Assembly (NCBI GenBank): GCA_902550805.1 | Contig: CACDAL010000006.1 | Coordinates: 1-64,000 of the forward strand | From: an uncultured Pelagibacteraceae bacterium | GTDB lineage: Bacteria; Pseudomonadota; Alphaproteobacteria; Pelagibacterales; Pelagibacteraceae | Length of the DNA: 64,000 nucleotides | Direction of reading: 5' to 3' | Part shown: positions 50,169 to 54,624 of the stretch, piece after piece | Position numbering within the stretch: position 1 is the first letter of the stretch | How the letters are laid out: each line of letters begins with the position of its first letter | Made by a program: the position numbers and the translations under genes | Notes under the pieces: model-generated | Database searches by the model: none | The model's input: the letters and a program-made list of their open reading frames with translations, nothing else | What the model was told of the DNA's origin: nothing

Positions 50169-51284
50169 ATGAGCGAAGAGAAAATTATAGTTAACAGTTG
50201 GAATGAGTGGGATCCTTTAAAACATGTCATAGTAGGAAAAGCCGACGGAACATGTATACCAGCACCTGAACCAGCTTTAGATGCTAAAGTTCCAGAAGAT
50301 TCTGATATGAGAGGACAGTTTGGTCCTAGAACTAAAGACACCGTTGATAAAGCTAATCAATTACTTGATGATTTTTCAAATATTTTAATAAAAAGGGGCA
50401 TTAAAGTTGATAGACCAGATCCAATAAATTTTAATCAAAAAACATCCACTCCTGATTGGGAATCCGAAACCATGTTTGGTTGCATGCCCCCAAGAGATGT
50501 TTTGTTAACTGTTGGGAATGAAATTTTAGAAGCGACTATGAGTTATAGATGCAGATGGTTTGAATACTTATGCTACAGACCTTTATTAAAAAAATATTAT
50601 AATTCGGACCCTAATATGCGTCATGAATCAGCACCAAAACCAAGATTAACTGATGCAGATTATAGAAAAGACTATTTGTCAGACAAAATTGGGATTCAAA
50701 AAAGATTGGAATGGACTGAAAATAAATTTTTTGTGACAACAGAAGAAGAACCTCTATTTGATGCCGCTGACGTATTGAGATTTGGAAAAGATTTAGTAGT
50801 ACAACATGGATTTACAACAAATCTTAAAGGAATAGATTGGATAAAAAGACATTACAAAGATCACAGAGTTCATGCTGTTAATTTCCCAGGAGATCCATAT
50901 CCTATTCATATAGATGCTACTTTCACACCTATCAAAGAAGGTTTAATAATTAATAATCCTCAAAGAAAACTTCCTAAAGAACAAAGAAAACTTTTTGAAG
51001 ATAACGGCTGGGAAATAATTGATTCTGCTCAACCTGCTCACAATTCACCCCCTCCTTTATGCTATTCTTCAGTTTGGTTATCAATGAATGTATTAGTTTT
51101 AGATTCAAAAACAGTATGTGTTGAAAAAAGTGAAGTTTATCAAGCTGAACAATTAGACAAACTAGGAATGGAAGTAGTTCCTGTTGAACTTAGAGATGCT
51201 TATGCTTTTGGTGGCGGTCTTCATTGTTGTACAGCGGACGTATATAGAGAAGGAAAATTAAAAGACTATTTTCCCAAACAATGA
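50169..51284 (+). CDS. Glycine amidinotransferase-like protein (GATM family)
   Basis: NSWNEWDPLKHVIVGKADG, MFGCMPPRDVLLTVGNEILEATMSYRCRWFE, GGGLHCCTADVYREG catalytic Cys region. Confidence 0.88.
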   Translation: MSEEKIIVNSWNEWDPLKHVIVGKADGTCIPAPEPALDAKVPEDSDMRGQFGPRTKDTVDKANQLLDDFSNILIKRGIKVDRPDPINFNQKTSTPDWESETMFGCMPPRDVLLTVGNEILEATMSYRCRWFEYLCYRPLLKKYYNSDPNMRHESAPKPRLTDADYRKDYLSDKIGIQKRLEWTENKFFVTTEEEPLFDAADVLRFGKDLVVQHGFTTNLKGIDWIKRHYKDHRVHAVNFPGDPYPIHIDATFTPIKEGLIINNPQRKLPKEQRKLFEDNGWEIIDSAQPAHNSPPPLCYSSVWLSMNVLVLDSKTVCVEKSEVYQAEQLDKLGMEVVPVELRDAYAFGGGLHCCTADVYREGKLKDYFPKQ

Positions 51285-51512
51285 TTAGTTTGGATTATTT
51301 TTTAAAAATTCAATATATTTTATAACTTCATTAAATTTTTCATCTTCAATATCTTTATAACTTGCATTAAATTTACTTTTTACACAAATAGCTACATGGG
51401 CATAAGGATTTCTTCCTTTTGGATGATTTGGATGTTCTGGAAGTTGACCTTCCAAATAATCGCCAGCTTCCTGAATAATTTTCCAGAGTTTACTTGCGTT
51501 TTCTTTGTTCAT
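51285..51512 (-). CDS. Small conserved-looking protein of unknown function, 75 aa
   Basis: Intact ORF; first 20 codons are duplicated at 53494-53552. Confidence 0.65.
   Translation of the reverse strand: MNKENASKLWKIIQEAGDYLEGQLPEHPNHPKGRNPYAHVAICVKSKFNASYKDIEDEKFNEVIKYIEFLKNNPN
51454..51512. repeat. Direct repeat A, copy 1 (59 bp)
   Basis: 57/59 identical to 53494-53552; differences at 51462 (g/a) and 51507 (g/a). Confidence 0.98.
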
Positions 51513-51538: not shown

Positions 51539-51562
51539 AATATTTCTAGTTTCATTTCTAGT
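51539..51562. repeat. Direct repeat B, copy 1 (24 bp, aatatttctagtttcatttctagt)
   Basis: 24/24 identical to 53352-53375. Confidence 0.95.
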
Positions 51563-51587
51563 ATCCTTTAAAATCCTATAATAGAAT

Positions 51588-53336
51588 TTATTGTCCCAAA
51601 GACTCTTTTGCTTCATCAACAGTATAATTTGTTCCATGTTGTTCATTGTATGCTGAAACTGCGTCTGCGAAACTACTATAACCTAAACCTTGAGCTGTTG
51701 CTTCTAGATCTACTGAAACACCAGCAGATGTTGCGGCCCTAATAGTATCAGCTACCTCTTGAAGACTACTATTAGCAGCAGCTGCTATTTGACCAGCATC
51801 AAAAGAGCTTATAGAGCCTGATTGAAGCGCATTGATAATATCTACATTATCTTGATAGGCCGAAGCATATTCTTCAACAGACCAGTTAGCACCATGTTGT
51901 GCGTTTGCTAAATCTGTTAAGTCAGAATAGTTATTAATATCTATTCCATAAGCATCACCAAAAGATCTAGCAAAATCATCAAGTGTAAAAGAAAATTCGA
52001 ATGACTGCGTATTTAAAGTTAGATCATTTCCAATTTGTGAAAAATTATCAGAATTAGTTTTAATCAAATTGTTAAACTCTTCTAAATCTATTAGTTCTTT
52101 AAAATTTTTCATAGCTAGTTGTGCTTTTATTGACTCAATTTCATCTTTAGACAAAGTTATTTCAATTCCAGCTTCATCAACGATTGATTTTGGAATAGGA
52201 TTTTTCCAAGCATTAGCCCAATCACTAAGTTTCCAATCTTTCATTTCAGTAGCTGAAGCAACCATAAGGTTTATAGTATCTAATTTTACATTTAGCTCAT
52301 CCTTATATACATTTAAAAATCTATTTACTGGAACATTAGAATTTTCTAAATTTAATATATGTAGCTGAATGTCATTTGATTTAATATTTTTATTAAGTTT
52401 CATCGATTTAGTTATTTTTCCTAATATTTCTAATTCTTCTTGTTGAAAGTCATCAAAATTAGCATTTGATAAATCTTGTTCAAATTTTTTTGGTATTTTG
52501 TCTTTTTTTATATTTTGAAGCACAAATTCTGAAATCTTGTATCCACTTAATAACGCTTCGAGATTCTTATCTCTTAATTTTTCAATTTCTATGACAAATG
52601 AAGTTAAAAGCTCATAATCTTTGTTGTCTCTATTTTTCTTTAAATCCTTCGATAAAGCTTTAAAAATTTTATTATATTCCTTATCAAATTTTTTTTCACT
52701 CAATCTCATATTTATTCTATCCTCAGTAAGAGATTTTAATTTGGATATATTTTTTGAGATTTTATTATGTATTTTTATTGATTTTTTTTCTTCTTTAGAA
52801 ATTTTTATAGTTTTAATTTCAGCCTGATTTAAAAGCTTGTACAAAGTGTAATATCTTTTAATAGCTGTTTCAGGACTATCATATAAAGTAAGACCTAGCG
52901 CCTCTCTCATTGATTTTTTTGCTTTACTTAGCCCGTATAATTTTTTTAAATTTCTTTTAGTTGCTGCATTTACTTTGGGATATTTTATCTCGAATATTTC
53001 AAGTGATTTTTTGTTTTCTTTTAATTGTTGCATATAAAAATATTCAAAATATGCCATTCCTAAGATGACTCTATCTGTATATTTTTCCATTAATCCTTTT
53101 TGAGTTATAAATATTTTAATAAATTTTTTGTTAGCAATTGTTTGTTTTTTATAAAAACCAGTTGCTGTTTCTGGAAACATACCTATTGGAGAAAAATCAA
53201 TTTTTTCAAAACTTCCAATATCATTTAGGTCATCTAAAAATACACCTAATTTAATTTCTTTTTCTGATCTTTCGTTGCTATTGGCAATATTTAAATTTAA
53301 AAAAATTAAAAGAATATAAATTACAATTTTTTTCAT
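51588..53336 (-). CDS. Exported 582-aa protein of unknown function, Lys-rich helical body and Ala-rich C-terminal repeats
   Basis: Signal peptide MKKIVIYILLIFLNLNIANS; C-terminal pair YSDLTDLANAQHGANWSVEEYASAYQ / YSSFADAVSAYNEQHGTNYTVDEAKESLGQ. Confidence 0.75.
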   Translation of the reverse strand: MKKIVIYILLIFLNLNIANSNERSEKEIKLGVFLDDLNDIGSFEKIDFSPIGMFPETATGFYKKQTIANKKFIKIFITQKGLMEKYTDRVILGMAYFEYFYMQQLKENKKSLEIFEIKYPKVNAATKRNLKKLYGLSKAKKSMREALGLTLYDSPETAIKRYYTLYKLLNQAEIKTIKISKEEKKSIKIHNKISKNISKLKSLTEDRINMRLSEKKFDKEYNKIFKALSKDLKKNRDNKDYELLTSFVIEIEKLRDKNLEALLSGYKISEFVLQNIKKDKIPKKFEQDLSNANFDDFQQEELEILGKITKSMKLNKNIKSNDIQLHILNLENSNVPVNRFLNVYKDELNVKLDTINLMVASATEMKDWKLSDWANAWKNPIPKSIVDEAGIEITLSKDEIESIKAQLAMKNFKELIDLEEFNNLIKTNSDNFSQIGNDLTLNTQSFEFSFTLDDFARSFGDAYGIDINNYSDLTDLANAQHGANWSVEEYASAYQDNVDIINALQSGSISSFDAGQIAAAANSSLQEVADTIRAATSAGVSVDLEATAQGLGYSSFADAVSAYNEQHGTNYTVDEAKESLGQ

Positions 53337-53351
53337 TATTAATTTATCTAA

Positions 53352-53375
53352 AATATTTCTAGTTTCATTTCTAGT
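53352..53375. repeat. Direct repeat B, copy 2
   Basis: 24/24 identical to 51539-51562. Confidence 0.95.
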
Positions 53376-53430
53376 TTTTTAATTAAATTGATGAGTCTTT
53401 AAGCGATTTATTTTAAGTTAACTTTTTAAT

Positions 53431-53490
53431 ATCCGCATAAGTGCTGTAGTTTAATGCAGCTTAATGTGGATTAGGTTGAACCTCTAATCC
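53431..53490. other. Two overlapping, mutually exclusive hairpins
   Basis: ATCCGCAT(53431-53438)/ATGTGGAT(53464-53471) with internal GCTG/CAGC, and GGATTAG(53468-53474)/CTAATCC(53484-53490); shared bases 53468-53471. Confidence 0.6.
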
Positions 53491-53552
53491 CGTAAATAAT
53501 CACCAGCTTCCTGAATAATTTTCCAGAGTTTACTTGCGTTTTCTTTATTCAT
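53484..53552 (-). pseudogene. 22-codon remnant or leader ORF MNKENASKLWKIIQEAGDYLRD, duplicated 5' end of the 51285-51512 gene
   Basis: Identical first 20 residues to the small gene, then RD and a TAG stop inside a hairpin arm. Confidence 0.75.
53494..53552. repeat. Direct repeat A, copy 2 (59 bp)
   Basis: 57/59 identical to 51454-51512. Confidence 0.98.
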
Positions 53553-54624
53553 CTTTTGGTAACCAAGAATTATACAAAGGATTATCTTTATCTATTGGGA
53601 GTTTAATATTTTTATTTTGTCTTGATGAATCATATACAGCTGTAACAAATTCTAATGATTTCCTAGCATCTAATAGAGTCACTTCATCGCTTGGTAAACC
53701 ATCTAACTTATTTGCAATTTCATCAAACATGCCTGCATACCAGGACTTAGGTTTCTTTATTTTTGATAATACTTCATCAATTTGATTTTGTGTTATGGGC
53801 GCTCTTGCTAAAAATTTCCATTTATCATCAGCAGGATTGTAGGGTTTGTCTGGAGAAGCTCCAGACTCTACTGTTAATCCCTCAAAACAAAATCGAAGTC
53901 TACTAGTATCATTTGCTGCTCCAAGTGTAATAGAGCTTGTAACTAAAGATCCATTTGACATCTCAATTGAAAGAGCGGCACAGTCTTCAACCTCAATATC
54001 ATTTACTCTAGTTGTTAATTTTGCAAATACATTTGAAACTGGACCTAAAATCATACTTACTAAATCATGAATATGAATTGAATGACTTAATATTGCACCA
54101 CCTTGTTCGCCCTCCCAAGTTCCTCTCCAAGGTTTAGAATAATAATCTTTTCCTCTATTCCAATGTGTTTCTAATGATGCAACAAGGGGTTTGCCCACAA
54201 GACCTGATTTAATTAGTGCTTTAAATTTAGAAAATCCTAAACCATATCGATATTGAAAAACTGGAAATATAAATTTACCTGTTTCTTTACTAATTTTTTC
54301 TAGTTCATCTATTTCTTTTAAACTAGATACTAATGGTTTTTCACAAATAACATGCTTTCCTGTCTCTAATGATTTTTTACAAGCAGAAAAATGTAAATGA
54401 GGTGGTAGACAAATATCAATAATATCAATTTCTTTTTCTTTTAAAACATCATCAAAATTAAGAGAAACTTTTGTTTTATTGTTTGAATGTAAAATTTTAT
54501 CAATAGCTTCTCTTGTTAAACCACACAAAGTATGAATATTAAATCTCTCAGATACTTTTTGAAAATCCTCAAAATGTTTAGCTCCTATATTGGTTCCAAT
54601 TACTCCAACTTGATATTTTTTCAT
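53545..54624 (-). CDS. Gfo/Idh/MocA family oxidoreductase
   Basis: YQVGVIGTNIGAKHFEDFQ; VICEKPLVSSLKEIDELEK. Confidence 0.88.
   Translation of the reverse strand: MKKYQVGVIGTNIGAKHFEDFQKVSERFNIHTLCGLTREAIDKILHSNNKTKVSLNFDDVLKEKEIDIIDICLPPHLHFSACKKSLETGKHVICEKPLVSSLKEIDELEKISKETGKFIFPVFQYRYGLGFSKFKALIKSGLVGKPLVASLETHWNRGKDYYSKPWRGTWEGEQGGAILSHSIHIHDLVSMILGPVSNVFAKLTTRVNDIEVEDCAALSIEMSNGSLVTSSITLGAANDTSRLRFCFEGLTVESGASPDKPYNPADDKWKFLARAPITQNQIDEVLSKIKKPKSWYAGMFDEIANKLDGLPSDEVTLLDARKSLEFVTAVYDSSRQNKNIKLPIDKDNPLYNSWLPKDE

Follow-up and report, generated by a model that had tools for sequence, protein, structure and literature searches.

CIMEs, which are related to ICEs, are att-flanked segments that lack an integrase and depend on a helper. 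SAR11, the ocean's most abundant bacteria, have small genomes with few known mobile elements and a strongly variable gene content. Several other described systems are close to the one reported here. PICMI-type phage satellites are recognized by a hallmark set of an integrase, AlpA, a DUF5906 primase, and Fis (PMC10803314). Tycheposons and VEIMEs, named in PMC11389934 and PMC10803314, are presented there as cargo-bearing integrative elements at tRNA or other sites that are linked to island variation in streamlined marine bacteria, and tycheposons carry a tyrosine recombinase in the account given by another citing paper (PMC10872708). Integron cassettes and CALIN arrays are tandem single-gene cassettes at one site whose recombinase is supplied elsewhere (PMC11389934), and in the fGI-2 additive islands of Methylophilaceae, as sketched in PMC10872708, recurring tRNA-end repeats separate the additions. 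In Dehalococcoides, 31 ssrA-specific islands occupy one site and an integration module is present in only 16 of them (PMC3146451). Apart from the PICMI gene set and the tycheposon recombinase, the units described below share these respective traits. The Dehalococcoides islands are larger (vcr islands are about 12 kb), have a tmRNA target, and carry integration genes in many cases.

The locus analyzed here lies in a 64,000-nucleotide stretch of DNA, referred to as the window, from the source genome G000. In our reading, to which we assign a probability of roughly 80%, the segment that extends from one copy of a repeat (A2) to the other (A1) is a non-autonomous integrative cassette that is moved in trans by a satellite-type tyrosine integrase and that carries ORF582 as cargo. 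The features of this locus are as follows.

50169..51284, plus strand: downstream border, a conserved amidinotransferase-like gene (synteny; weak ADI match below the cut-off)
51285..51512, minus strand: target, a conserved 75-aa protein gene whose 5' end is re-supplied by the cassette (translation; relatives)
51454..51512, minus strand: right att core A1, the first 20 codons of the intact 75-aa gene (repeat A; the identity of transferred cassettes breaks inside the core)
51539..51562, minus strand: right B, a direct-repeat pair, proposed right integrase arm sites (exact repeat)
51563..51581, minus strand: right-end box TATAGGATTTTAAAGGAT, found in most right ends (right-end listing; the same box occurs at tRNA-Leu cassettes)
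51588..53336, minus strand: cargo ORF582, a 582-aa protein with an apparent signal peptide (ORF)
53352..53375, minus strand: left B, in which ACTAGAAATG and AAACTAGAAATATT form a pair of direct repeats, the proposed arm sites of the integrase on this side (exact repeat, arm match, satellite attP)
53383..53400, minus strand: AAAGACTCATCAATTTAA, a conserved box of cassette left ends with no counterpart seen in satellite L129 (alignments)
53440..53489, minus strand: left-end repeats, phased nnCACAnTA units of about 10 bp that are also present in satellite attP (left-end alignment)
53494..53552, minus strand: left att core A2, a truncated 75-aa gene (codons 1-20) with a stop codon directly behind it (97% to A1)
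53545..54624, minus strand: upstream neighbor, a GFO/IDH/MocA oxidoreductase whose stop overlaps the start of A2 (Pfam)

The first-pass annotation had reported a 24-bp repeat on both sides of ORF582, and direct reading of the window bears out its account. The two exact copies of B (51539-51562 and 53352-53375) stand 25 bp beyond the stop codon of ORF582 and 15 bp ahead of its start codon, and each contains a TTTCTAGT doublet at 12-bp spacing; with its flanks, the similarity extends over 46 bp at 85% identity. No further match to B with 3 or fewer mismatches was present in the window (0 in 100 shuffles), and B does not recur elsewhere in the assembly of G000 (1.08 Mb, 80% complete). B is therefore unique to this locus in G000, contrary to the ubiquitous intergenic occurrence that had been named as the observation that would overturn a link to mobility. 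The outer repeat A (A1, 51454-51512, and A2, 53494-53552) is 59 bp long with 97% identity between copies, and translation of the minus strand showed that it comprises the first 59 bp (20 codons) of the 75-aa gene at 51285-51512. An intact copy of this gene lies downstream of the insert and a truncated copy lies upstream, so that the minus strand reads oxidoreductase, A2 (truncated start, then a stop codon), 118 bp, B2, ORF582, B1, and A1 with the whole 75-aa gene. The A2-to-A1 segment is ∼2.04 kb, and both copies of B fall within conserved cassette ends of ∼180 bp (left) and ∼75 bp (right).

ORF582 has no Pfam family above the cut-off; a match to DAXX_hist_bd below the cut-off falls in a lysine-rich coiled stretch and was disregarded. 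Relatives of ORF582 were found in 12 of 200 other genomes. At L075 (G050), a close relative leads directly into the 75-aa gene, without a right arm. Distant relatives lie ∼2 kb upstream of tRNA-Leu copies in G022 (C3:82610-84358) and G076 (C12:12094-13833).

The 75-aa gene is present in 116 of 201 relatives and in 459 stretches of GTDB genomes, and the amidinotransferase-like gene adjoins or is near it in nearly all same-genus loci, as judged by synteny. In more than 12 same-genus genomes, the intact 75-aa gene is preceded, at a distance of 1-6 kb, by a second copy of approximately codons 1-20, and G024 has three such copies. At the DNA level these truncated copies have a common end point, which is followed by a common left end; such a copy heads 17 inserts in a first set and 56 in the set of complete modules. 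In the left end, ...GATTATTTGGGG and a TAG stop are followed by three or four ∼10-bp units (nnCACACTA), TTATGCGGA, the box AAAGACTCATCAATTTAA, and a B-type pair. A typical right end has TATAGGATTTTATAGGAT, then another B-type pair and AGATAAAAC..., and finally the ATG with which the next copy begins. Other cassette-bearing loci likewise have a B-type pair in front of the intact 75-aa gene. A left-end query gave matches in 133 of 399 same-genus genomes; it was matched over most of its length in 60 of the 399 (15%; manual row count), the other matches being to an arm-like stretch only. Weak matches in G473, G294, G382, G048, G320, and G004 (L222-L227) lie within a conserved coding gene and were rejected as cassettes. 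The 56 complete modules come from 48 loci, are 793-6847 bp long (median 2020 bp), and form tandem runs of up to three. Single-cell assemblies account for many of the related genomes, and the pattern is found in many independent genomes and in the single-contig genome G465 (99% complete).

An empty site is known as well: in G070 (L071), the oxidoreductase gene directly abuts the 75-aa gene. As in a site-specific integrative element, then, a segment of the target gene is repeated at both ends of the insert, the target is restored, and an uninserted site exists. The repeat order and the empty site agree with the earlier argument that the A-B-ORF-B-A layout could not come from one tandem duplication, and together they rule out a tandem duplication of ORF582. 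The suggestion that A is a target duplication holds to the extent that A is a duplicated att core within the target gene. It does not hold for a staggered-cut duplication, since A is always the same 59-bp gene start, whereas a transposon is expected to produce a short duplication of an arbitrary target; A is instead the core of a site-specific recombination. The B-B joined scars that the first-pass annotation proposed to look for at empty loci were not found and are not expected, as the empty site is a direct join of the upstream gene to the 75-aa gene.

The B-type pairs provide a further regularity. Each is made of two direct repeats, ACTnnnnnn, at a spacing of about 12 bp and followed by AGATAAA, and the variable bases differ by module (AGAAATG, TGTAG, CGAAAC, ATACC, AGGCAC, and others). 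Within a module the left and right arms agree, with a mean alignment score of 15.9 compared with 4.7 between modules (N = 46 distinct pairs; permutation test, p = 5e-5, best of 20,000 permutations 8.4). Paired recognition sites for one protein would behave in this way. We had also entertained the idea that a duplication of the gene carried B along as a shared promoter or leader, because B stands before both start codons; this was rejected, as B pairs also accompany unrelated cargo and match by type. B-like pairs, which the first-pass annotation proposed to look for around other genes in SAR11 genomes, are present at both ends of other inserts in same-genus relatives. Its suggestion that a mobile cassette could have B as its recombination site or terminal motif is supported by B-type direct repeats at both ends of 56 units, a few of which are eroded. 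The arms of L056, L198, and L171 are unmatched, and L056 and L196 have cargo that is 99.7% identical and right arms that differ, which suggests end swapping between arm types. Because some modules have unmatched arms, homologous recombination also shapes the modules.

A search of viral contigs recovered core A in two contigs. One of these, L129 (9070 bp), has a 29-bp terminal repeat and was therefore read as circular. It contains, in order, a right B pair, A, 10-bp units, and a B pair inside the first codons of an integrase gene (MNEKLDIKLELGEIKQ...), so that left B in cassettes takes the position that the start of the integrase gene has in satellites; beyond position 116 of the left-end model, L129 no longer matches. 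Its 568-aa tyrosine integrase matches a PHROG integrase (8e-23) and scores one bit below the cut-off for Pfam PF00589, with two relatives above it. R383, R507, H531, and Y541 are at the expected tyrosine-recombinase active-site positions and are invariant in six relatives. The other genes of L129 encode an AEP/DUF5906 primase, a RusA-like resolvase, and small proteins, some of them DNA-binding-like; no capsid gene was recognized in this contig. An alignment search identified four further ∼9-kb contigs of the L129 family, all with terminal repeats. L336 and L337 have core A and paired arms like L129, and L338 and L339 have a different core (TTGAATAAGCGTTGGTATTCCT...), which implies that a further target gene exists.

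In the attP of the circular viral contigs L129, L336, and L337, the right arm, core A, the repeats, and the left arm inside the integrase start follow one another, and the right arm of L337 is identical (27/27) to that of the cassette L182_2069; the arms of L129 and L216 match those of other cassettes at 24/26 and 25/27 positions. A core with flanking repeated arm sites is therefore found in the cassettes and likewise in the attP of an integrase-bearing element. Given the same arrangement in satellite attP, B is best read as the integrase arm-type sites that flank core A. L216 (G239) is a degenerate satellite at the 75-aa site, L130 is a satellite-like provirus joined to the 75-aa gene, and relatives of the satellite integrase are present in 7 of 399 genomes, several of them at other sites. 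A search of annotated phages with the integrase gave no match, and a search of solved structures gave none either. One further integrase (G406) lies beside a tRNA-Ser-like 5' sequence, at which ARAGORN calls no tRNA. At L207 (G074 C10), the C-terminal part of an integrase stands behind an alanyl-tRNA-synthetase-like start, probably as an amplification chimera.

L129, L336, L337, L217, and L218 resemble PICMI-type satellites (PMC10803314) in their size of 8-9 kb, tyrosine integrase, DUF5906-type primase, and lack of recognized capsid genes. They differ from that type in having a RusA-like resolvase and in that AlpA and Fis were not convincingly found, the best candidate being a marginal Fis-like match (L129/L217). 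The cassettes are unlike PICMI satellites altogether in having no PICMI genes, and the window cassette holds ORF582 only. When viral contigs were searched for cassettes with the 18-mer AAAGACTCATCAATTTAA, only unrelated contigs were returned, and cassettes may be too short for this collection; the matches in L131-L136 are chance occurrences in phage coding genes, and these contigs were rejected as cassette-bearing. The sequence data and viral contigs used here showed neither excision nor a circular form of a cassette, nor a cassette within a virus particle.

The satellite integrase was absent from the 56 modules at the 75-aa site (tblastn) and from 24 tRNA-Leu cassettes, and none of the 80 cassettes contained a satellite gene for replication or integration, either complete or in fragments. 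Only two satellite genes, both of L130, have relatives among cassettes. A cassette without an integrase needs a helper in trans for its movement. As in CIMEs, attL and attR are present without a recombination module, but the proposed helper here is a phage satellite rather than an ICE, and the cassettes form a large family in which the left end is standard, the arm types are matched, and the cargoes number in the dozens. The cassettes have neither the own integrase of an integrative element nor the hallmark tyrosine recombinase of a tycheposon, and they target the 5' end of a protein gene or the 5' half of a tRNA, which also sets them apart from tycheposons as the citing papers portray them. 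G000 and 12 of 13 checked genomes (including G465) have only one tyrosine recombinase, and the thirteenth, G082, has one more. This resident recombinase is conserved, has 305-325 aa, the size of Xer, and is encoded in G000 at L315:1023-1940 (C9).

The 123 cargo ORFs fall into 92 families. They include type I and IIG restriction enzymes, an EcoRI-type methylase with a GmrSD/HNH nuclease, and a C5 methylase, as well as a Z1 helicase, a GmrSD-Schlafen protein, TypA with a DEAD helicase, DHDPS, a multi-gene transport-like operon, an SDR, TetR, and many small secreted proteins. One L201 cargo is 69% identical to a gene of satellite L130. Many cargo genes begin with the signal peptide MKKLLGIVVLGLL (L188, L061, L084, L198, and other right ends), and the right-end box resembles an out-of-frame remnant of the MKKLLGIVVLGLL coding sequence; this box may serve as a homology point for cargo exchange.

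Evidence for transfer between divergent hosts came from L181 and L182, whose cassettes share 99.8-100% identity over the ∼2.3 kb that runs from the repeats through the right arm, compared with 71% for the upstream flank, 84% for the rest of the 75-aa gene, and 82.9% for the downstream gene. The identity breaks inside A on both sides, and variants inside A give conflicting hints on the crossover point. Similarly, L064 and L183 have cargo at 98% and a target gene at 82% identity.

A second site was found at tRNA-Leu(TAA), the 5' 39 nt of which occur in two or three copies on one contig in 35 of the 86 genomes having that sequence (manual count). Most of the units at these loci (L316-L335, L217, L218, and L220) have the same right-end box, matched B pairs, and no integrase, and the arms again agree within units (9.8 versus 1.8 between units; N = 26, including two satellites; p = 5e-5). 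This site is also occupied by two satellites of 8-9 kb. The tRNA-Leu cassettes bring along a replacement for the ∼65 bp in front of the tRNA, probably its promoter, and a 279-aa cargo is 97.8% identical between the two sites. A search of viral contigs for the tRNA-Leu junction pattern gave no match. Compared with fGI-2 of Methylophilaceae, for which tRNA-end repeats alone are described in the part of PMC10872708 that treats it, the arms, the matched ends, and the satellite source are new here.

Recurrent and precise insertion, common and matched ends, the lack of an integrase, an att design shared with satellites, and transfer between divergent hosts are features that can be read directly from these sequences, and they suggest the following mechanism as the most economical one. 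The circular cassette would consist of right arm B, core A, the left-end repeats, and left arm B, and a tyrosine integrase of the type found in ∼9-kb Pelagibacter phage satellites would recombine it with the core with which the 75-aa gene begins, so that the near side regains an intact gene and the far side is left with a truncated 5' end. Each B pair would be bound by the arm-binding domain of the integrase; its type, which varies by cassette and must agree at both ends, would set which integrase can act. Having no integrase of its own, the cassette would move only with a helper in trans, and repeated insertion at one core would build arrays that carry single genes or small operons, often restriction systems. 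We infer that satellite integrases are the movers, that they bind the arms and catalyze recombination in trans, and that cassettes are packaged and transferred in particles.

Other explanations of these data differ in how well they account for the ends of the inserts. Insert ends resemble satellite attL and attR, and G239 has a degenerate satellite at the 75-aa site, so the inserts might be decayed satellites or prophages that lost their interior, kept a passenger gene, and are no longer mobile. We regard this as quite improbable. The absence of any integrase, primase, or resolvase fragment from 80 cassettes makes satellite decay an unlikely origin of each insert, both ends are intact and matched in nearly all cassettes, the conserved cassette-specific left segment is missing from L129, and the near-identical cassettes of L181 and L182 in divergent hosts partly refute it. 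A site-specific step might instead have been only the founding event, and the cassettes might now travel chiefly by transduction or DNA uptake and homologous recombination via the core, the arms, and neighboring genes. The occurrence of one cargo with different arm types, the unmatched arms of some modules, and the near identity of the 279-aa cargo at the two sites are in line with this idea; however, the L181/L182 identity corresponds to exactly the cassette, ending inside the core on both sides with unlike flanks, and homologous recombination alone would not keep left and right arms matched. Spread mainly by this route therefore seems unlikely to us.

A conserved tyrosine recombinase of 305-325 aa in essentially every checked genome could in principle move the cassettes in the manner of an integron. 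We give this very little credence: the enzyme is present equally in genomes without cassettes at the site (G012 and G082), its Xer size leaves no room for an arm-binding domain, its gene lies away from the cassettes, and it is satellite attP that the cassette arms match. That many related genomes come from single cells raises the prospect of a chance repeat or a single-cell amplification chimera, which is refuted by the same architecture at 48 loci of independent genomes, in the single-contig genome G465, and in circular viral contigs, and has practically no chance of being correct.

An integrase-free cassette presumably served by satellite integrases departs from the full definition of each known class that we tested, and an earlier mention in SAR11 is possible, the comparison with tycheposons and VEIMEs being drawn from citing papers. 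Judged by site description, integron cassettes differ in having attC sites for an integron integrase (IntI) rather than long att sites with arms, the cassettes here being about 2 kb each. On balance, SAR11 would appear to host a two-tier system in which phage satellites depend on phages and integrase-free cassettes depend on satellite integrases, with the arm pairs acting as a swappable address code and with single genes and anti-phage systems shuttled among at least two sites, integron-like without an integron.

A cassette with recognizable ends would provide a mechanism for the variation in gene content of SAR11, and these ends let the mobile genes of SAR11 be listed by sequence. Arm type offers a direct test of which satellite serves which cassette, and the many restriction-system cargoes tie the cassettes to phage resistance in SAR11. 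These results suggest a parasitic dependence one level below that of phage satellites.
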